Positions 8,077 to 23,940 of a stretch of 32,842 bases of DNA are shown one piece after another. How positions within the stretch are numbered: the stretch's first letter is position 1; every line of letters begins with the position of its first letter. The notes beneath the pieces were generated by a model. The model made no database searches, had not been told where the DNA came from, and was given only the letters and a program-made list of their open reading frames with translations. This DNA comes from Alphaproteobacteria bacterium (GTDB lineage: Bacteria; Pseudomonadota; Alphaproteobacteria; ATCC43930; CGMCC-115725). The stretch spans positions 1 to 32,842 of the forward strand of contig JASIAN010000255.1 in the NCBI GenBank assembly GCA_030042035.1, in the 5' to 3' direction. Both the position numbers and the translations under genes were made by a program.

Positions 8077-9030
8077 ATGCAATTCGGGTTCAACCTGCCG
8101 AACAGCGGCACGCTGGCGGCGCCCGAAGCGATGGCGCGCATCGCGCGCGACGGCGAGGCGCTCGGCTTTGATTATCTCAGCCTGACCGACCACATCGCGC
8201 TGCCCGATATCGCCGAGCCCGGCTACCCGTATTCCGAAAGCGGCGCGTTTTATTCAACCGACAGCGCCTATCGCCACGAGATGCTGACATCCGTGGCATG
8301 GCTCGCCGGCATCACTGAGCGGCTGCGGCTCGTGCTCGCCGTGCTCGTCGTGCCGCATCGGCCGGCGGTGCTGGCGGCGAAGATGCTGGCGACGATCGAC
8401 GCGCTGTCGGGTGGCCGGCTGACTGTCGGGGTCGGCGCCGGCTGGCTGAAGGCCGAGTTCGATTCGGTCGTGACGACGCCGTTTGCCGAGCGCGGCGCCG
8501 TCACCGACGAATACCTCGCCGCGTTCCGCACGCTGTGGACCGAACGCACGCCGACGATCGCCGGCCGCTACGTGCATTTCGACCGGCTGCTCTTGGAACC
8601 GAAGCCGGCGCAGCGGCCGCATCCGCCGATCTGGGTCGGCGGCGAGAGCCCGCCGGCGTTGCGCCGCGCCGCCCGGCTCGGCGACGCGTGGTATCCGATC
8701 GGCACCAACAACGCCCATCCGCTCGACAGCCTCGCGCGTTACCAGGCCGGCATCGAGCGGCTGCGGCGAGCGACCGAGAGGGCCGGCCGACCGCGCGACG
8801 CGGTGGCGCTGACCTACCGCGTCAAGCAGTATGGCGAGGCGGTCCCGACGCGCGCAGCGGATGGTGAGCGGCGGCTGTTCTCGGGCAGCGATGCGGACAT
8901 CATCAGCGACATCCGCGCCTTGCGCGATCTCGGGGTCAGCGCGATCGACTTTGATTTCGAGCGCCCCGACCCCGACGCCGTCGTCAGTGCGATGCGCAGC
9001 TTTCGCGAGCGGGTGCTGGCGAGAGTATGA
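8077..9030 (+). CDS. LLM-class oxidoreductase, F420-dependent-type family
   Basis: A 317-residue luciferase-like protein of the single-domain type usually annotated as F420-dependent (TIGR03619-like). It shows MQFGFNLPNSG at the start, YLSLTDHIALP, HRPAVLAAKMLATIDALSGG, LTVGVGAGWLKAEFD, and HPPIWVGGESPPALRRAAR. The ATG is 23 bp after the preceding monooxygenase stop, so the two are co-transcribed. Whether this organism makes F420 cannot be seen here; FMN is an equally possible cofactor. It probably catalyses a second oxidation or reduction step in the same pathway. It is the last gene of the left-hand catabolic cluster. Confidence 0.88.
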   Translation: MQFGFNLPNSGTLAAPEAMARIARDGEALGFDYLSLTDHIALPDIAEPGYPYSESGAFYSTDSAYRHEMLTSVAWLAGITERLRLVLAVLVVPHRPAVLAAKMLATIDALSGGRLTVGVGAGWLKAEFDSVVTTPFAERGAVTDEYLAAFRTLWTERTPTIAGRYVHFDRLLLEPKPAQRPHPPIWVGGESPPALRRAARLGDAWYPIGTNNAHPLDSLARYQAGIERLRRATERAGRPRDAVALTYRVKQYGEAVPTRAADGERRLFSGSDADIISDIRALRDLGVSAIDFDFERPDPDAVVSAMRSFRERVLARV

Positions 9031-9212
9031 GGTTCGCGCGTGCGGCGCGACTGGCGGCCGCCGTCGTGACGCCGGCGCCGGCGTCTGGTGTCGCCGCGGC
9101 AATCCAGCGTCCGCCGCCGACCTTTGCCGCGCCGCCGATTGCGGTCGGTAATGTTGCTCTGGTTGCGCAGAAGGCGGCCACATGCGAACATGCACCGGTC
9201 CGTATTCAAATT

Positions 9213-9226
9213 TTTTACGCGTAAAA
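9213..9226. promoter_or_regulatory. Perfect 14-bp palindrome, candidate operator of the pentose phosphate operon
   Basis: TTTTACGCGTAAAA reads identically on both strands and stands out as AT-flanked in a GC-rich gap. It lies 31-44 bp before the proposed gluconokinase start, the right place for a repressor or activator site of the whole operon. LacI- and GntR-type sugar regulators often use palindromes of this size. No regulator gene is adjacent, so the binding protein is unknown. Confidence 0.45.
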
Positions 9227-9256
9227 CTCCGGTCGGCAACGAGTGGGGAGCAGGGT

Positions 9257-9799
9257 TTGCCGCGATTGCTGCCGGCCGCGCGGATCGCGGTTGTCATGGG
9301 CGTAGCGGGCGCCGGCAAGACGACGGTCGGGTGCGAATTGGCGCGACGGCTCGGCTGGCAGTTCGAGGACGGCGACGTGCTGCATCCGCCGGAGAATGTT
9401 GCGAAGATGCGCAGGGGGCATCCGCTCGATGACAACGACCGCGCCCCGTGGCTCGCCGCAATCGCCGCGCAGATCGATGCGTGGCGACACGGCGGCATCC
9501 GCGGCGTCGTTACGTGCTCGGCGTTAAAACGGGCGTACCGCGACGTGATCGTCGGCGAGCGTCCGGAGGTGCGGCTCGTCTATCTCTGCGGTCCGCGGCA
9601 CGTGCTGGCGGAGCGTCTCGGGGGGCGAACCGGGCACTTCATGCCGGCCAGTCTGTTGGACAGCCAACTGGCGACGCTGGAGCCGCCGGACCCAAGCGAA
9701 CATCCGATCGTTGTCTCGATCGAGAAACCGGTGGCGGCGGTCGTCGCAAATATCGTCGCCGCGCTGGGGCCGGGCGCAATCACGCCAGCCGAGCGTTGA
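9257..9799 (+). CDS. gntK: Gluconokinase (thermoresistant GntK type)
   Basis: Phosphorylates D-gluconate with ATP to 6-phosphogluconate, feeding the next genes. The P-loop GVAGAGKTT stands close to the N-terminus, followed by the family motifs FEDGDVLHPPENVAKMRRGHPLDDNDRAPWL (a segment described here by its key residues D-G-D, H-P, K-M and D-D-R-x-P-W), TCSALKRAYRD, and GHFMPASLLDSQLATLEPP. I choose the TTG at 9257 because GGGGAG (9245-9250) precedes it and the 180-residue product matches the usual 165-180. The ATG at 9182 would add a 25-residue non-conserved tail and would place the 9213 palindrome inside the gene. Function is secure; the start is not. Confidence 0.9.
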   Translation: MPRLLPAARIAVVMGVAGAGKTTVGCELARRLGWQFEDGDVLHPPENVAKMRRGHPLDDNDRAPWLAAIAAQIDAWRHGGIRGVVTCSALKRAYRDVIVGERPEVRLVYLCGPRHVLAERLGGRTGHFMPASLLDSQLATLEPPDPSEHPIVVSIEKPVAAVVANIVAALGPGAITPAER

Positions 9800-12763: not shown

Positions 12764-13738
12764 ATGCAGCTCGGTATGATCGGCCTCGGCCGGATGGGCG
12801 GCAACATCGTGCGGCGGCTGATGCGCGCCGGGCATAGCTGTGTCGTCTACGACAGAAGCGCAGAGGCGACGCAGGGGCTGGCGGGCGAAGGCGCGACGGC
12901 GAGCCGCGACCTCGCCGATTTTGTCCGCCAATTGCAGAAGCCGCGCGCCGTCTGGGTCATGCTGCCAGCGGGCGCGATCACCCATGGCACGATCGTCGAG
13001 CTGTCCGGTCTGCTCGAGCCGGGCGACATCCTGATCGACGGCGGCAATTCGTTCTTTCACGACGATGTCGCGCACGCCGACATGCTGAAGGAAAAAGGCA
13101 TCCGCTATCTCGATGTCGGCACGTCGGGCGGCGTGTGGGGCTTGGAACGCGGATACTGCATGATGATCGGCGGCGACAAGGCGGCGTTCGAGCATCTCGA
13201 CCCGATCTTTGCGACGCTCGCCCCGGGCCGCGGCGCGATCGATCGCACGCCGGGGCGCGACAGGCGCGATCCGCGGGCCGAGCAGGGCTATCTGTTTTGC
13301 GGGCCGGCCGGCGCCGGGCATTTTGTCAAGATGGTGCACAACGGCATCGAATACGGGCTGATGCAGGCCTACGCCGAGGGCTTTGACATCCTGCGCGGCG
13401 TCAATTCGCCGGCGGTGCCGGAAAATCGTCGCTACGAACTCGATGTCGCGGACATCGCCGAGGTGTGGCGGCGGGGCAGCGTCGTCGCGTCGTGGCTGTT
13501 GGATCTGAGCGCCATCGCGCTCGCCGAGGACCCCGAGCTCAAGGAATTCACCGGCCGCGTCGATGATTCGGGCGAGGGTCGATGGACGATCCAGGCCGCG
13601 ATCGAGGAGGCGGTGCCGGCGGAGGTGTTGTCTGCCGCACTCTATACCCGCTTCCGCTCGCGGCGCGACCACACGTTTGCCGAGAAGGTTCTGTCGGCGA
13701 TGCGCCGGCAGTTTGGCGGCCATCAGGAAGCGCCTTGA
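12764..13738 (+). CDS. gnd: 6-phosphogluconate dehydrogenase, decarboxylating, short (GntZ/YqeC) form
   Basis: Converts 6-phosphogluconate to ribulose-5-phosphate and CO2 with NAD(P)+. It has the Rossmann motif GLGRMGGNI at residues 6-14, the substrate motif [24 protein letters not shown], and the catalytic segment [20 protein letters not shown]. At 324 residues it is the short form, about 140 shorter than E. coli Gnd; short forms are often NAD-preferring. The ribosome site GGGAGGG lies close to the ATG. It is 41 bp after the fusion gene and 11 bp before zwf. Confidence 0.95.
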
Positions 13739-13749
13739 GGGGAGCCGGG

Positions 13750-15303
13750 ATGGAAAGCGACACGTCGGGGCGGACGGCGCGCGGCCATCGGGCGCCGCCC
13801 TGCGCGATTGTCATCTTTGGCGCCAGCGGCGATTTGACGAAGCGCCTCTTGATGCCGGCGCTCTACAATCTGGCGCGCGCCCGCCGGCTCTCCGAGGGGT
13901 TTGCCGTCGTCGGCATCGACCGCACCCCGTGGTCGGAAGAGGAATTCCGCGCCTCGCTTGCCGAGGGGGTGCGCAGTTTCGTCTCCGACACCGGCGGCGG
14001 CGGCGCGGTTGCCGAGAGTTTCGATCCCGACACGTGGGATTTCATCGCCGCGCGCCTGACGCATCTCGACGGTGACGCGACCGACCCTGGGATTTACCAA
14101 CAGCTGCATAAGAAGCTGCAAGAAGTCGAGCGCGATTACGGCACCGGTGGCAATGTGATCTTTTATCTCGCGGTCGCCAGCGCGCTGTTCGGACCAATCG
14201 TCGAGCGCATCGCCGAGGCCGGCCTCGCCGCCGAAAAGGACGGGCATTGGCGGCGGGTCATCATCGAGAAGCCGTTCGGCGCCGATCTACAATCGGCGCG
14301 GGCACTGAACGAGCGGCTCCTCAACGTGCTCGATGAATCGCAGATCTACCGGATGGACCATTTCCTCGGCAAGGAGACGGTCCAGAACATCATGGTCATG
14401 CGCTTCGCCAACGGCATTTTCGAGCCGCTGTGGAACCGCGACCATATCGACCATGTGCAGATCACGGTGGCGGAGACCGTCGGGGTCGAGCGCCGCGCCG
14501 CGTTCTACGAGGCGACCGGCGCCTTGCGCGACATGGTGCCCAACCACGTCTTTCAGCTGTTGGCGCTGACCGCAATGGAGCCGCCCAATTCGTTCGCCGC
14601 CGACGCGGTGCGCACCGAGAAGGACAAGGTGCTGGAGGCGCTGGTGCCGCTGAACGGCGAGGATGCGACGCGCAATGTCGTGCGCGGACAATATACGGCC
14701 GGCATCGTGCGCGGCCAGCCGGTGAAGGCTTACCGCGAGGAGGCGGGAGTTGCACCCGATAGCATGACCGAGACGTACATCGCGATGCAGCTCGGCATCG
14801 ACAACTGGCGCTGGGCGGACGTGCCGTTTTATCTGCGCACCGGTAAATCGATGACCCGGCGCACGACCGAGATTGCCATCCAATTCAAGCGGGTGCCGTT
14901 CGGGCTGTTCCGCGATACGCCGGTCGATGCCCTGACGCCCAATGTGCTGGTGTTGCAGATACAGCCGGACGAAGGCATCTCGCTGCAGTTCGGTGCGAAG
15001 CGGCCGGGTCCCGAGATTCGCCTCGGGGGCGTGCGCATGGATTTCCGCTACCGCGACTATTTCCACTCCGAACCGAGCACCGGCTACGAGACGCTCGTCT
15101 ATGACTGCATGATCGGCGATGCGATGCTGTTCCAGCGCGCCGACAGTGTCGAGGCCGGCTGGGCGGCAGTGCAGCCGGTCCTCGACCTGTGGCAGCGCAA
15201 CAAGAGCACACCGCTCGAATTCTATCCGGCCGGCACCGCCGGGCCCGACGCCTCCGACCAGCTGCTGTTGCGCAGCGGCCGCCGGTGGCGCCCGATCAGC
15301 TGA
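13750..15303 (+). CDS. zwf: Glucose-6-phosphate 1-dehydrogenase
   Basis: Oxidises glucose-6-phosphate to 6-phosphogluconolactone with NADP+ (or NAD+), the entry step of the oxidative pentose phosphate and Entner-Doudoroff pathways. The 517-residue length is normal. The nucleotide-binding motif FGASGDLTKRLLMPALYNL lies near residue 20, and the active-site signature RMDHFLGKE is near residue 201, with Phe where Tyr is more common. The C-terminal YRDYFHSEPSTGYETLVYD is also typical. The start at 13750 is 11 bp after the gnd stop with GGGGAG before it; the frame is open further upstream but only as an overlap with gnd. The next operon gene is separated by a repeat. Confidence 0.96.
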   Translation: MESDTSGRTARGHRAPPCAIVIFGASGDLTKRLLMPALYNLARARRLSEGFAVVGIDRTPWSEEEFRASLAEGVRSFVSDTGGGGAVAESFDPDTWDFIAARLTHLDGDATDPGIYQQLHKKLQEVERDYGTGGNVIFYLAVASALFGPIVERIAEAGLAAEKDGHWRRVIIEKPFGADLQSARALNERLLNVLDESQIYRMDHFLGKETVQNIMVMRFANGIFEPLWNRDHIDHVQITVAETVGVERRAAFYEATGALRDMVPNHVFQLLALTAMEPPNSFAADAVRTEKDKVLEALVPLNGEDATRNVVRGQYTAGIVRGQPVKAYREEAGVAPDSMTETYIAMQLGIDNWRWADVPFYLRTGKSMTRRTTEIAIQFKRVPFGLFRDTPVDALTPNVLVLQIQPDEGISLQFGAKRPGPEIRLGGVRMDFRYRDYFHSEPSTGYETLVYDCMIGDAMLFQRADSVEAGWAAVQPVLDLWQRNKSTPLEFYPAGTAGPDASDQLLLRSGRRWRPIS

Positions 15304-15329
15304 TGACGCGATGTATCAAGATCACAGCC

Positions 15330-15408
15330 GTCATTGCGAGCGAAGCGAAGCGATCCAGATGAGCAACACGGCGCGGGATTGCTTCGTCGCACCGCTCCTC
15401 GCAATGAC
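15330..15408. repeat. Palindromic intergenic repeat, family A, copy 2
   Basis: A 79-bp imperfect inverted repeat from GTCATTGCGAGCGAAGCGAA to CCGCTCCTCGCAATGAC, with the same outward ends as the copy at 3811. It lies inside the pentose phosphate operon between zwf and rpe, 26 bp after the zwf stop. As an RNA hairpin it could protect the upstream part of the transcript or lower downstream expression. Confidence 0.85.
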
Positions 15409-15426
15409 AGTGTGAGAATGCGATAG

Positions 15427-16170
15427 ATGCCGCCCCTCGCTGACCGTCATGCTGAAGCGCGCCCGCAGGGCGCGTCTCGAAGCACGCGCCGGCTGATTGT
15501 CGCGCCGTCGATCCTGTCGGCCGACTTTGCGCGGCTCGGCGAGGAAGTGCGCGCGGTCGAGGCGGCCGGCGCCGACTGGATCCACGTCGATGTCATGGAC
15601 GGCCGCTTCGTGCCCAACCTGACGATCGGCCCGGTCGTCGTCGAAGCCGTGCGCCGCGTCACAAAAAAGCCGCTCGACGTGCATTTGATGATTGTCGAAC
15701 CGGAGCGCTATCTCGGCGACTTCGCGAGCGCCGGCGCCGACCACATCCTCGTCCACTGCGAGCCGTCGGCGACGATCCACCTGCACCGCACGCTGTCGCA
15801 CATCCGCGATCTCGGCAAGCTCGCCGGGGTCGTGCTCAATCCGGCGACGCCGCTCGACCAGATCGAGCACATTCTCGACCTCGTCGCCATCGTTCTGATC
15901 ATGACCGTCAACCCCGGTTTCGGCGGGCAGAAATTTATTCCTGCGATGCTGCCGAAGATCCGCGCGTTGCGGCGGCTGTGCGATGAGCGCGGCGTTGATC
16001 CGGTCATCGAGGTCGATGGCGGCTTGTCCGGCGCCAATGCGTGGCAGGCGATCGAGGCCGGTGCCACCGCGATCGTCGCCGGCTCGGCGGTGTTCGGGGC
16101 TGCCGATTATGCCGCGGCGATCGCGGCCATCCGCAGCTCTACGGCGCCCTCCGCCGGAGCACGCCCCTGA
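15427..16170 (+). CDS. rpe: Ribulose-phosphate 3-epimerase
   Basis: Interconverts ribulose-5-phosphate and xylulose-5-phosphate. The 247-residue frame carries all family motifs of this metal-dependent TIM barrel: [58 protein letters not shown], and [12 protein letters not shown]. The usual protein starts about 2-5 residues before APSILSADF, but here the frame extends 25 residues upstream to the only in-frame ATG (15427), whose ribosome site is weak. That extension coincides with a palindromic repeat at 15446-15486. Either the repeat is translated as a non-native N-terminal tail, or translation begins at a non-ATG codon near 15490. The stop overlaps the rpiA start (TGATG). Confidence 0.94.
15446..15486. 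repeat. REP-like palindrome inside the 5' end of rpe
   Basis: GTCATGCTGAAG followed by a perfect 7-bp stem, CGCGCCC (15458-15464) and GGGCGCG (15468-15474) around GCA, then TCTCGAAGCACG. This layout is like the common alphaproteobacterial GTCATGCTGAxG...CTCGAAGCACG repeats. It lies in the rpe reading frame ahead of the conserved domain. Confidence 0.65.
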
Positions 16171-16868
16171 TGTCGGACCGCGACCATCTGAAGCGCGCCG
16201 CCGCCGCGCGCGCCGTCGAATTTGTCGAGCCCGGCATGGTGCTGGGGCTCGGCACCGGGTCGACCGCCGCCTTTGTCATCGAAAGGCTGGGGCAGCTGGT
16301 GGCGCAGGGCCTCGACGTCGTCGGCATCCCGAGCTCCGAGCGTACCGCCGAGATGGCGCGCCACCTCGGCATCCGCCTGACAACCTTTGCCGAGCACGGC
16401 CGCATCGATCTGACGATCGACGGCGCCGACGAAGTGCTGCGCGGCAGCCTCGACCTGGTGAAGGGCGGCGGCGGCGCCCTGCTGCGCGAGAAGATTGTCG
16501 CCGCGGCGAGCGACCGCTTCATCGTTGTCGTCGATGACGAAAAGCTCGTCGATCGTCTCGGTCAGCACGTGCCGGTGCCGGTCGAGGTCACGCAATTCGG
16601 CTGGCAGGCCACCGCCGCGGCGCTTGAGCGGCTTGGCGGGCGGCCGGAACTGCGGCAAGCGGCCGGCCGGCCGTTTGCGACCGACGGCGGCAATTTCATC
16701 TTCGACTGCCGGTTTGCGTCGATCGACGACCCCGGCCGCCTCGAATGCCGCCTAAACATGACGGTCGGCGTCGTCGATAGCGGGCTGTTTGTCGGCCGCA
16801 GTTCCGCGGTGGTCGTCGCCTCGGAGCGCGGCGTCGATATCCTGAAACCAGGCCAAGGGGTGCGTTGA
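16170..16868 (+). CDS. rpiA: Ribose-5-phosphate isomerase A
   Basis: Interconverts ribose-5-phosphate and ribulose-5-phosphate. The 232-residue length is normal. It has GLGTGSTAAFVIERL, the catalytic segment TIDGADEV with LVKGGGGALLREKI, and DGGNFIFDC. The ATG at 16170 overlaps the rpe stop as TGATG, so the two are translationally coupled. The stop overlaps the next start in the same way. With rpe it completes the isomerisation steps of the non-oxidative branch. Confidence 0.95.
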   Translation: MSDRDHLKRAAAARAVEFVEPGMVLGLGTGSTAAFVIERLGQLVAQGLDVVGIPSSERTAEMARHLGIRLTTFAEHGRIDLTIDGADEVLRGSLDLVKGGGGALLREKIVAAASDRFIVVVDDEKLVDRLGQHVPVPVEVTQFGWQATAAALERLGGRPELRQAAGRPFATDGGNFIFDCRFASIDDPGRLECRLNMTVGVVDSGLFVGRSSAVVVASERGVDILKPGQGVR

Positions 16869-17674
16869 TGCGGCGGCTCTCCCTCGTTGTCAGCGATGTC
16901 GACGGCACGCTGGTGACGAACGCCAAAGTACTGACGCCGCGCACGATTGCGGCGGTCGCTCGGCTCAACGCGGCCGGCATCCCGTTCTCGATCTGCAGCA
17001 GCCGGCCGCCCTTCGGGCTGCGCATGATGATTGGACCGCTGCAACTGCAGCAGCCGTTCGGCGGCTATAATGGCGGCGCGATTGTGCTGCCCGATCTCTC
17101 CGTCGTCGAACAGAAGCTGATCCCGCCCGATGCGGCGCGCGAGGCGGTCGCAACGTTCGGCCAACGGGGTGTCGATTGCTGGGTCTTCTCCGGCGACGCG
17201 TGGCTGATCACCAACCCAGAGGGCGCGCATGTCGCGCACGAGACGCGCACGGTGCAGACGCCGCCGACGGTCGTGCCGCGGTTTACCGAGGCGCATTTCG
17301 CGACGGCCGGCAAGATCGTCGGGCCGAGCGACGACCATGCGCTGGTCGCCCGCCTCGCCGAGGACCTGCAGGACCGCCTCGACGCCCGTGCCAATGTCAT
17401 CCGCTCGCAGCCGTATTATTGCGACGTGACGGCGCCGGGGATCAACAAGGGTCGGCTCGTCGATCTCCTGGCCGCGCGGCTCCAAGTGCCGCAGGACGAG
17501 ATTCTCGTGCTCGGCGACATGGAGAATGACCTCGAAATGTTCAAGCGGGCTGGGTTCGGGGTGGCGATGGGCAACGCATCCGATGCGGTCAAGGCCGCCG
17601 GGCAGGCAACGACGCTGTCGAACGAGGAAGACGGTTTCGCGGCCGCGATCGACCGCTACGTCTTTGGCGATTGA
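16868..17674 (+). CDS. Cof-type HAD-IIB sugar-phosphate phosphatase
   Basis: A 268-residue HAD-superfamily hydrolase. Motif I is VVSDVDGTLV, with the nucleophile and acid/base aspartates two residues apart; motif II is the ICSSRPP segment; the motif III lysine is in INKGRLVDLL; motif IV is VLGDMENDLEMF, followed by GVAMGNASDAVK. The cap type and length fit the Cof/IIB group, which dephosphorylates sugar phosphates and other small phosphomonoesters. The ATG at 16868 overlaps the rpiA stop. In this operon a role in removing excess or damaged sugar phosphates is plausible but unproved. Confidence 0.88.
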   Translation: MRRLSLVVSDVDGTLVTNAKVLTPRTIAAVARLNAAGIPFSICSSRPPFGLRMMIGPLQLQQPFGGYNGGAIVLPDLSVVEQKLIPPDAAREAVATFGQRGVDCWVFSGDAWLITNPEGAHVAHETRTVQTPPTVVPRFTEAHFATAGKIVGPSDDHALVARLAEDLQDRLDARANVIRSQPYYCDVTAPGINKGRLVDLLAARLQVPQDEILVLGDMENDLEMFKRAGFGVAMGNASDAVKAAGQATTLSNEEDGFAAAIDRYVFGD

Positions 17675-18959: not shown

Positions 18960-20648
18960 ATGAAGCAGTATTGCGACGGCGGCGAGGCGATTCTCGAAGC
19001 GTTCCGTCATCTCGGGCTCGATTACATCATCTCCTCGCCCGGCTCGGAATGGTCGCCGGTGTGGGAGGCGCTGGCCCGCCAGAAGGTCAACCAGAAGCCC
19101 GGCCCCGGCTATATCGATTGCTGGCACGAGACGCTCGCGGTCGATATGGCGATGGGCTGCACGGCGGCAACCGGCCGCATGCAGGCCGTTCTGCTGCATG
19201 CCGGCGCCGGCCTGTTGCAAGGGTCGGCGGGCATGCATTCGGCGCTGCTGTCCGAGACGCCGATGGTGATCCTGTCGGGCGAATCGACGAGCTTTGGCGA
19301 GGACCCGGCGCTGCCGATCGAGCCGCAATGGTATCGCGCTCTCAGCATCGTCGGCGGGCCGCAGCGCCTCGTCGAACCGGTCACGAAATGGGCGACCCAG
19401 GTGGGCAGTGTCCACACGCTTTACGAACATGTCGTGCGGGCCGGCGAATTCGCGCAGCGCAGCCCGATGGGGCCCGTTTATCTCAACGTGCCGCTTGAAG
19501 TGATGCTGCAGGACTGGACGCCGCGCGAGCATCCGCGACAGGTGCCGCCGGCACCGAAGACGGCGGCGACCGCGGCCGATGTCGAGCGCGTCGCCGCGCT
19601 CGTAACGGCGGCGAAAAACCCGGTCATCCTGACCGAGACCGCCGGCCGCGACCCCGCCGCCTTCGCGGCGCTCGTCGCATTCGCCGAAGCGTTCGCGATC
19701 CCGGTCGGCGGCCGCGGCGGCGCCTTCGCCAATTTCCCGAAGAGCCACCCGCTCTATCTCGGCCAGCACATCGACGCGGTCGTCAAGGATGCCGACCTCG
19801 TGCTGCTCGTCGCGTGCAAGGCGCCGTGGTATCCGCCGAGCCGGAAGCCGACCAGCGGGACGGTCATCGCGATCGACCCCAACCCGCTCAAAGGCACGAT
19901 GGTGTATCAGAGCCAGCAGGCGGACGATTACCTCGAAGGCGATATTGCGCTGTCGTTGCGCGCGCTCGCGGTGGCGGCCGGGAGGCCGGCGCCCGGCCAG
20001 CATGCCGAGCGCCTCGCGCGCTGGCGGCGCGAGCACGACCGCATCGTCGCCGACGAACGCGCGGCCGAGGCGGAGGCGATGACGAGCGAAGAGATTTCGC
20101 CGCTGGCGCTGGCCGGCGCGCTGCGCGCGGCAATGCCGGAGGATGCCATCTACGTCGAGGAGACAATCACCCATTCGGCGCTCTTGCAGCAGCACCTGCC
20201 GTGGCGCGAGCCGCACAGCTTTTTCCGGCCCGGCGGCGGCCTCGGCCAGGGGCTCGGCATGGCGCTCGGCGTCAAGCTCGGCCAAAAAAATCGGCCGGTG
20301 GCGGCGATCCTCGGCGACGGCTCGTTCCTGTACAATCCGATCACCCAGGCCTTGGGGGCGGCAAAGAATTACGACCTGCCGATCCTGATCGTTGTCTGCA
20401 ACAACAAGAAATACCGCGCGATGCAAACCGGGCACGAACACCATTACCGGGACGGTGTCGCGCAGGCCGAAGATCTGTGGCACGGCGTCCACATCGATGG
20501 TCCGGCTTACGCCGAGCTCGGCCGGCCGTTCGGCTTTCCCGGCTGGCGCGTCGAGCGGCCGAGCGAACTGGCGGCGGCGCTCGCCGGCGGCCTCAAATCC
20601 GTCGCCGACGGCCGCAGCGCGATTGTCGATGTCGTGCTGACCCGCTAG
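18960..20648 (+). CDS. Thiamine-pyrophosphate-dependent enzyme, acetolactate-synthase-like
   Basis: A 562-residue protein; the ribosome site AGGAGG (18949-18954) is close to the ATG. It has the three-domain plan of the POX/ALS/benzoylformate-decarboxylase family. E57 in CWHETLAVDMAMG is the likely cofactor-activating glutamate. The central domain runs about 190-330. The TPP-Mg motif starts G452-D-G-S and ends at N481-N482 (VVCNN). Members decarboxylate 2-keto acids or cleave acyl-CoA substrates; the substrate here cannot be told. It lies 55 bp after the CodA-like gene and may be the last gene of that rightward series. Its stop overlaps the convergent cupin gene by 4 bp. Confidence 0.86.
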   Translation: MKQYCDGGEAILEAFRHLGLDYIISSPGSEWSPVWEALARQKVNQKPGPGYIDCWHETLAVDMAMGCTAATGRMQAVLLHAGAGLLQGSAGMHSALLSETPMVILSGESTSFGEDPALPIEPQWYRALSIVGGPQRLVEPVTKWATQVGSVHTLYEHVVRAGEFAQRSPMGPVYLNVPLEVMLQDWTPREHPRQVPPAPKTAATAADVERVAALVTAAKNPVILTETAGRDPAAFAALVAFAEAFAIPVGGRGGAFANFPKSHPLYLGQHIDAVVKDADLVLLVACKAPWYPPSRKPTSGTVIAIDPNPLKGTMVYQSQQADDYLEGDIALSLRALAVAAGRPAPGQHAERLARWRREHDRIVADERAAEAEAMTSEEISPLALAGALRAAMPEDAIYVEETITHSALLQQHLPWREPHSFFRPGGGLGQGLGMALGVKLGQKNRPVAAILGDGSFLYNPITQALGAAKNYDLPILIVVCNNKKYRAMQTGHEHHYRDGVAQAEDLWHGVHIDGPAYAELGRPFGFPGWRVERPSELAAALAGGLKSVADGRSAIVDVVLTR

Positions 20649-21121
20649 GGGCCGCGGCGCGCGGTTTTCGGGTAGGGCGTGCCGTCGCGGTGGGTGTAGC
20701 CGACACCCACCTTCGCCATCATGTCGATGTCCGAATAAAAAGCCACCTCCTCCGGCGAGCGCGTGCCGATTTCGAGGATTTCGGCGGGCGCGCCGGAGCG
20801 GTTCTGCAGGTGATGGCCGTCGCCGTTATTGGCCTTGAACCCGGCGCTGTCGCCCGGGCGTAGAATCTCTTCGCCGGAATCGGTGACCAGCACAACCTCG
20901 CCCGATAGCACATAGACAAACTCGTCCTCCTTCGTGTGCCAATGGCGCTGGCTCGACCAGGCGCCGGGCGGCAGGCGCAACAGGTTGACGCCGAATTGCG
21001 TCAACCCGGCAGCGTCGCCAAGCCGCCTGCGCTCGCGCGCCCGGCATGGCTCGTCGAACGGTGCCGGGTACAGCGTGCCGACCACCGCTTCCAGCGTCGC
21101 CGCGTCGATGCGTTTCGTCAT
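20645..21121 (-). CDS. Single-domain cupin protein
   Basis: A 158-residue protein; the ATG at 21121 follows GAGGAG on the minus strand. Both cupin motifs are intact. Motif 1 is H60-W-H62-TKED-E67 leading to VYVLSGE; motif 2 is GDSAGFKANNGDGHHLQN with H103 as the fourth metal ligand. Such small metal-binding barrels include sugar-phosphate isomerases, dioxygenases and ligand-binding proteins. No further function can be assigned. The gene is divergent from the HTH/citrate-synthase-like gene and shares its 68-bp control region, so it may be that protein's regulatory target. Confidence 0.85.
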   Translation of the reverse strand: MTKRIDAATLEAVVGTLYPAPFDEPCRARERRRLGDAAGLTQFGVNLLRLPPGAWSSQRHWHTKEDEFVYVLSGEVVLVTDSGEEILRPGDSAGFKANNGDGHHLQNRSGAPAEILEIGTRSPEEVAFYSDIDMMAKVGVGYTHRDGTPYPKTARRGP

Positions 21122-21152
21122 GTCCGCGCACTCCTCTGTAACCTTATTTGAA

Positions 21153-21200
21153 CTTGATGCTGAGGTCCGCCACATGTCAATCTTGATTCATGCAATCAAG
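21153..21200. promoter_or_regulatory. Candidate autoregulatory operator in the cupin / HTH-citrate-synthase gap
   Basis: A perfect inverted repeat, CTTGATT (21182-21188) and AATCAAG (21194-21200), surrounds the ATG (21190-21192) of the citrate-synthase-like gene. A further CTTGAT half-site is at 21153-21158. The gene has no Shine-Dalgarno sequence, so its mRNA may be leaderless or nearly so, and a protein bound here would block its transcription or start. The encoded protein has its own N-terminal HTH, which makes autoregulation a natural guess. Confidence 0.5.
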
Positions 21201-22350
21201 TGAAGAAGACCCGCTGAGCGCGCGCGAAACCGCCCGCCGTCTCGGCATCAAGCTCGATACGCTCTACGCCTATGTCAGCCGCGGGCTGATTCGTTCGGTC
21301 GCCATGCCGGGCAGCCGCGAGCGCCGGTACGCCGCCGAGGAGGTTGAGCGGTTTCGGCTGGGCCGCGGCGGCGAGCGGCAGCGCGAAGCGATGATGCCGG
21401 TCATCGCGTCGGCGATCTCGCTGATCGACAACGGCCGCTTCTATTACCGCGGCCATGACGCGCTCGTCCTCGCCGAAACCGCGACGCTGGAGGAGGTCGC
21501 GGCGTTGCTGTGGGTAACGCGATCCGTGCCGCCCGCGCCTCCCCTCCCCTCGCGGCGCAGCCGCGGCGATCGGGCGATGGGCTTGATCGAGCGCTGTCAG
21601 GTGTGCCTCGCCAGACTGTCGGCGCGCGATGCGGCCTCCCTCGACCTCAGCCATGACGGCGTCGTCCGCACCGGGCGGGCGATCCTTGCGGCGCTGGCCG
21701 GCTGCATCGACGCGCAAGCGGCAACCGACGGACCCGCGCATCGCCGTCTCGCAGCGCATTGGCGACTCGACGAGGGCGGTGGCGATCTGGTGCGGCGCAT
21801 TCTCGTGCTGCTCGCCGACCACGAACTCAACGCCTCGACCTTTGTCGCGCGCTGCGTCGCCTCGACCGGCGCCACTCCATATGCCGCCGTTGTCGCGGCG
21901 CTGGCAGCGCTGTCGGGACGCCGGCACGGCGGCGCCTCGGCGCGCGCCGAGGCGCTGTTTCGCGAAATCGGCGACCGTGCCGACCCGCTGCCGGTCATGG
22001 CGGCGCGACTGGCGCGCGGCGACAATCTGCCGGGTCTCGGGCAGCCGCTCTATCCCAACGGCGACCCGCGCGCCCGCGCCATCCTCGCTGCGATCCCAAC
22101 AGCGGCGCCGGCGGCGGCGCTGCGCATCGCAGCGGCAGCCGCGGCCGCGAGCCGGCTCACCGGCGATCACCCCAATGTCGATTTCGCGCTCGCCGCGGCG
22201 GCATCCGCGCTCGGCCTGCCAGACGGCGCCGCGCTCGGCCTCTTTGTCATCGGCCGCACGGTCGGCTGGATCGCGCATGCGATCGAGCAATACGAGAGCC
22301 AGGTGCTGATCCGGCCGCGCGCTCGCTACACCGGCCCGCCCCCGGTGTGA
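21190..22350 (+). CDS. Citrate-synthase-like protein with N-terminal excisionase/MerR-type HTH
   Basis: A 386-residue two-domain protein. Residues about 8-57 form a winged-helix DNA-binding domain of the MerR/excisionase kind (LSARETARRLGI, then TLYAYVSRGLI and RRYAAEEVERF). Residues about 70-375 are citrate-synthase-like, with LLADHELNASTF (H211), RRHGGAS (H246, the catalytic base position) and PNVDFALA (D331). The usual GFGHxLYxxxDPR motif reads GLGQPLYPNGDPR, so the oxaloacetate-binding catalytic histidine (E. coli H305 position) is Q285 (CAG, 22042-22044). HTH-fused citrate synthases are known in this class; the lost histidine suggests a metabolite sensor rather than an active enzyme. It has no ribosome site and is divergent from the cupin gene. 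Confidence 0.87.
   Translation: MQSSEEDPLSARETARRLGIKLDTLYAYVSRGLIRSVAMPGSRERRYAAEEVERFRLGRGGERQREAMMPVIASAISLIDNGRFYYRGHDALVLAETATLEEVAALLWVTRSVPPAPPLPSRRSRGDRAMGLIERCQVCLARLSARDAASLDLSHDGVVRTGRAILAALAGCIDAQAATDGPAHRRLAAHWRLDEGGGDLVRRILVLLADHELNASTFVARCVASTGATPYAAVVAALAALSGRRHGGASARAEALFREIGDRADPLPVMAARLARGDNLPGLGQPLYPNGDPRARAILAAIPTAAPAAALRIAAAAAAASRLTGDHPNVDFALAAAASALGLPDGAALGLFVIGRTVGWIAHAIEQYESQVLIRPRARYTGPPPV

Positions 22351-23864: not shown

Positions 23865-23940
<76 letters not shown>

Follow-up and report, generated by a model that had tools for sequence, protein, structure and literature searches.

A helix-turn-helix protein with a citrate synthase fold as a probable ligand-sensing autoregulator with a conserved operator

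What is the function of a protein that joins a DNA-binding domain to the fold of citrate synthase (CS), the entry enzyme of the Krebs cycle, and has glutamine in place of the oxaloacetate histidine? This question is raised by a gene at positions 21190 to 22350 (+) of the window, the 32,842-nucleotide stretch of alphaproteobacterial DNA analyzed here. The reading frame is open, with the upstream stop two codons before the ATG, and encodes 386 amino acids. A preliminary description of the sequence had taken the product for an enzyme turned transcription factor, controlling itself and the divergent cupin gene. The architecture that it had named, a MerR/excisionase-type helix-turn-helix (HTH) plus a CS fold, was confirmed by Pfam: HTH_17 matched residues 9 to 56 (E = 7.7e-7), MerR_1 scored 22.5 against a cut-off of 21.6 bits (E = 1.2e-4), and Citrate_synt (PF00285) matched with E = 7.8e-61, while PF00376 (MerR) reached 16.4 against a cut-off of 28.2. 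These matches placed the N-terminal HTH at residues 9 to 57 (21214 to 21360, +), with the recognition segment TLYAYVSRG, which varies little or not at all among family members. The protein scored far under the cut-offs of all NCBIfam CS models (best, TIGR01800, 159 versus 421 bits). An AF2 model had a pLDDT of 85.8, and among the top PDB matches listed by Foldseek for this model, all were citrate or methylcitrate synthases. Elsewhere in the window, a tRNA-Lys (CTT) lies at 23865 to 23940 (+), the ORF read across it being spurious, and genes at 13582 to 17674 resemble, by sequence impression, zwf, rpe, rpiA, and a gene for a Cof-type hydrolase; they are unrelated to the fusion gene, hereafter HTH-CS.

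Window residues H211, H246, R294, D331, R356, and R375, which are the equivalents of H229, H264, R314, D362, R387, and R407 of Escherichia coli CS, are all kept. Q285 corresponds to H305, the oxaloacetate histidine, and the catalytic triad H264/H305/D362 (E. coli numbering) is therefore incomplete; the sequence at the oxaloacetate-histidine/DPR motif is GLGQPLYPNGDPR. Read directly, the codons are CAC for H211, CAC for the catalytic base H246 (21925 to 21927, +), CAG for Q285 (22042 to 22044, +), and GAT for D331 (22180 to 22182, +). Alignment and codons thus agreed with the preliminary description on the two retained residues and the substituted one. The window genome contains one housekeeping citrate synthase (L001, elsewhere in the genome) and HTH-CS, and no second CS besides.

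A check for conservation of this glutamine in orthologues gave a patchy picture. Among orthologues of the same genus (62 to 67% identical), glutamine is present in L005, L006, and L007 (codons CAG, CAG, and CAA) and histidine in L004 (genome G005). The full active-site set was found in 93 of 104 HTH-CS proteins, the rest comprising nine with glutamine (one of them also changed at D362), one with asparagine, and one with histidine and a D-to-E exchange. In further relatives the set was complete in 60 of 62, with glutamine in one, and partner citrate synthases had histidine wherever the position was readable in a full-length gene. In a tree of 16 rows from the window's clade, the His/Gln distribution needs four changes, and independent changes outside the window's lineage occurred in L038, L063, and L163. 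These comparisons indicate that the oxaloacetate-histidine position was loosened in the window's lineage and that the HTH-CS family did not originate by its loss; the protein appears to tolerate the exchange of H305 for glutamine, being under no requirement for full synthase activity. Orthologues with histidine and full synthase activity had been named in advance as counterevidence to an enzyme turned regulator, and such orthologues do exist as far as the residue is concerned; this counterevidence is partial and does not extend to DNA binding. Of that proposal the regulator stands, and the loss of histidine as its cause does not: about 90% of the family retains the histidine, glutamine is homoplasic, and because histidine-bearing relatives share the HTH, the operator, and the divergent arrangement, the comparison does not support the loss as the step from enzyme to regulator. 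We also rejected the idea that glutamine tracks loss of a partner citrate synthase gene (gltA2). The window's genus fits, with four glutamine members lacking gltA2 and the one full-length histidine member having it, but the sister genus does not, as L112 has histidine without gltA2 and L111 and L116 have glutamine with it.

HTH-CS proteins form a single clade separate from neighboring citrate synthases (SH-aLRT of 100 on the dividing branch; the tree rows include L021, an HTH fragment labeled "_CS"). They were present in 58 of 389 sampled Alphaproteobacteria and also in records titled or classed as Betaproteobacteria, Chloroflexota, Acidobacteriota, Gemmatimonadota, Actinomycetota, and Deinococcota, so that the clade spans at least six phyla. 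HTH columns T24, L25, Y26, A27, V29, and R31 did not vary in an alignment of 17 rows and hardly varied among 102 rows. The window protein lies within this clade and has the features of the family, an N-terminal HTH with TLYAYVSRG fused to a CS fold.

The preliminary description had also reported a palindrome at the gene's own start codon. This palindrome, TTGATTCATGCAATCAA, is exact at 21183 to 21199 and includes the ATG; by chance, a match with no more than 2 mismatches would turn up 0.29 times in the window. Extended by its left flank, it gives the putative operator TCAATCTTGATTCATGCAATCAA (21177 to 21199), which overlaps the start codon in a divergent arrangement with 68 bp between the two start codons (21122 to 21189). 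The extended sequence occurs exactly once in the 3.8-Mb window genome, where the next-best operator-like sites have 3 mismatches and no wider regulon was found; with a single site, the regulon predicted there consists only of the HTH-CS gene and the divergent cupin gene. The site conforms to a family motif, TCAAYNTTGAT-N4-7-RTCAA, that was present upstream of 87 of 102 HTH-CS genes and in none of the dinucleotide shuffles; the count is descriptive, since the motif was first spotted in those same upstream sequences. As an independent check, a genome-wide scan recovered the motif at the HTH-CS start in 31 of 38 HTH-CS genomes, and the reversed pattern gave 0 matches across 60 genomes. Operator-bearing loci carry the titles Pseudomonadota, Chloroflexota, Acidobacteriota, Gemmatimonadota, Actinomycetota, and Deinococcota (the last with 9 of 10 core bases). 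Overlap of the site with the first codons is seen in the window and close relatives; many other lineages carry this motif in noncoding DNA, and coding constraint is thus no explanation for its conservation. Among the 102 upstream regions, no recognizable operator was found at several Reyranella loci, L012, and L063, and L004 has one only with an altered spacer and half-site. The frequency of the motif before relatives, against an expectation of 0, supports the earlier proposal of a DNA-binding regulator of itself and the divergent gene.

An extra, unlinked operator was found directly before a class III CoA-transferase gene in G026, G028, and G389. The enzymes of G026 and G389 are 58% and 37% identical, respectively, to the Pandoraea CoA-transferase encoded divergently from HTH-CS, and the HTH-CS start of G026 itself yielded no operator match. 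The CoA-transferase is hence linked to this site both in cis (in one group) and in trans (in another), which is the best evidence that the operator is functional. Other second sites (G014, G183, and G308) and matches in G031, G033, and G034 were discarded as imperfect motifs that are probably due to chance. At L186 (1655 to 4373), a second operator lies between genes for an acyl-CoA dehydrogenase (by Pfam; resembling glutaryl-CoA dehydrogenase) and a class III CoA-transferase, a setting that suggests a dicarboxyl-CoA as a possible ligand.

Most lineages have a gene for a second citrate synthase in the divergent position. A class III CoA-transferase (CoA_transf_3) takes this place in 24 loci, chiefly of Betaproteobacteria, and also in L018 and L019, while Calidithermus has an HMGL-like gene and Bradyrhizobium sp. 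NAS80.1 a CitMHS citrate transporter gene. The Bradyrhizobium transporter faces a second, divergent HTH-CS copy (L038, 980 to 2494, -) with glutamine at H305 and histidine at D362; a citrate-responsive switch is the obvious guess for this pair. In the divergent position, the window has only a cupin gene (20645 to 21121, -; likely start, 21121) for a protein of ∼158 amino acids (PF07883, E = 2e-18), and cupins at the same place in the genus are 67 to 75% identical. The order HTH-CS<->gltA2-cupin was found in L181 and L023, gltA2 and cupin occur together also in L185, and gltA2 is missing from the window, L182, L183, L184, and L112, where the cupin gene faces HTH-CS directly. Gene order thus points to the window cupin gene as the remnant, formerly the second gene of a gltA2-cupin operon, of an ancestral HTH-CS<->gltA2-cupin locus after loss of gltA2. 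That it still lies beside the operator supports its predicted control by HTH-CS. Downstream of its intact HTH-CS gene, L023 additionally contains a fragment of a second one (8687 to 9319) that seems to be a decayed duplicate.

We are fairly confident that HTH-CS is a one-component transcriptional autoregulator whose CS fold serves as the sensor of a CS-pocket ligand and which acts on the conserved operator. This reading builds on architecture, operator, genomic uniqueness, clade-wide conservation, partner genes, and purifying selection, all apparent from sequence comparison. In the proposed mechanism, a CS-type dimer would present two MerR/excisionase-like HTH domains to the TTGAT/ATCAA half-sites of an operator that, in the window, covers the gene's own start codon within the divergent region, and would repress, or otherwise gate, its own gene and the divergent one. 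A CS-type ligand, i.e., a 2-oxo or tricarboxylic acid and/or an acyl-CoA, would shift both CS domains in the manner of substrate closure and thereby alter DNA binding; the position of the operator over the start codon suggests repression that is relieved or set by the ligand. In most bacteria, the regulated gene would encode either a further citrate synthase or a class III CoA-transferase; the window's clade would have had the gltA2-cupin operon in this role, of which only cupin is left. Operator binding, the sign of regulation, and the ligand are what we infer. Somewhat less firmly, we regard it as probable that the whole cross-phylum family consists of transcription factors in which the CS active site senses the oxaloacetate/acyl-CoA state while catalysis is suppressed or dispensable, and which control accessory citrate synthases and class III CoA-transferases through a near-invariant operator.

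One observation runs counter to a pure sensor, which would have no need of catalytic residues: about 90% of the family retains them all. Together with the location of HTH-CS next to CS genes, the high counts of complete active sites in both samples would fit a bifunctional trigger enzyme that is active as a citrate (or related acyl) synthase, regulates its locus by binding DNA, and in which the window glutamine lowers activity but does not abolish it. We consider this unlikely, given the Gln/His switches inside one clade and two further lines of evidence. In another genus of the same family, the HTH-CS orthologues of G015 and G024 lack both histidines, the H305-DPR segment, and the D362 segment, and they keep the TLYAYVSRG HTH; G015 retains the operator exactly, and G024 had no operator match. 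The two proteins are 70% identical with a dN/dS of ∼0.33, so that shortened members that have no active site are maintained by selection and catalysis appears dispensable in HTH-CS. These pseudoenzyme genes are located at L189:1687-2706 (-) in G015 and L195:2344-3351 (-) in G024, and their other-side neighbor looks, by sequence impression, like a glycosyltransferase gene and not a citrate synthase gene.

The second line of evidence comes from Caulobacter crescentus, in which citB complements an E. coli ΔgltA mutant and the adjacent citC (CCNA_03758) does not (eLife 2020;9:e52272, PMC7083601). In that study, CitB and CitC are 30% and 32% identical to GltA, CitC figures solely as a paralogue of citrate synthase that does not complement, and the terms "helix-turn-helix" and "MerR" are absent from the text. 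In three Caulobacter-like genomes, we found a partner CS gene (-) just below HTH-CS (+), ∼97% along the chromosome or contig, with 30 and 31% identity of the products to GltA. Gene order, map position, and percent identity make it very probable that citC is the Caulobacter HTH-CS gene (we infer the genus assignment and, from locus-tag order, the position of CCNA_03757/8 near the chromosome end). HTH-CS of this genus has a complete active site, and its failure to complement argues against a trigger enzyme, although it could also reflect poor expression.

The strict pairing of HTH-CS with a divergent CS gene in many lineages might suggest that HTH-CS is a regulatory subunit that mainly hetero-oligomerizes with the divergent citrate synthase, modulating it or bringing it to DNA; this is very improbable, as in many other lineages the partner is a CoA-transferase, an HMGL-like protein, CitMHS, or a cupin, and the window genome offers only its housekeeping CS. 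Equally improbable is a decaying enzyme that drifts in the window's genus after gltA2 loss, with glutamine as the first inactivating hit: the distribution of glutamine and gltA2 within the genus would fit, but a dN/dS of ∼0.33 against genus-mates, intact ORFs in five genus members, glutamine codons that vary synonymously (CAG/CAA), an exactly kept operator, and the sister genus all argue against it.

If the autoregulator reading is true, HTH-CS would directly sense the acetyl-CoA/oxaloacetate junction at the level of transcription, using the same ligands and the same fold as the enzyme, and it would explain the apparently useless third citrate synthase of many Alphaproteobacteria, e.g., Caulobacter citC. 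The predicted operator is short, specific, and conserved, which makes the idea quickly testable in Caulobacter, for which a citB/citC deletion strain exists (PMC7083601). The fusion architecture is already visible from public domain models. In the open-access literature, judged by titles and abstracts and with few subscription journals covered, there was no evident paper on a DNA-binding citrate synthase, the Caulobacter study was the one relevant publication, and no description of a role for the fusion was found there; HTH-CS is probably a widespread family of bacterial gene switches, apparently undescribed so far.

Among the closest known systems is Caulobacter CitC, very probably a family member itself, which has the full active-site set, unlike the window protein. 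Citrate and 2-methylcitrate synthases (PF00285) have the fold and most active-site residues in common with the window protein, which differs by the extra HTH, its sub-cut-off NCBIfam scores, and the replaced oxaloacetate histidine. With the MerR family it shares the MerR_1/HTH_17 matches and an inverted-repeat predicted operator near its own promoter, but PF00376 stays below cut-off, and the effector domain is a CS fold. BirA and PutA are trigger enzymes that bind their own operator and whose main job remains catalysis; the CS activity of HTH-CS is doubtful, and it is not a member of their families. In MocR/GabR regulators, which are often autoregulated and divergently encoded, a GntR HTH is combined with an aminotransferase fold reused as a ligand sensor. 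Like HTH-CS, they join an HTH to a metabolic enzyme fold, but the HTH family and the enzyme fold are different ones, and we claim no homology.
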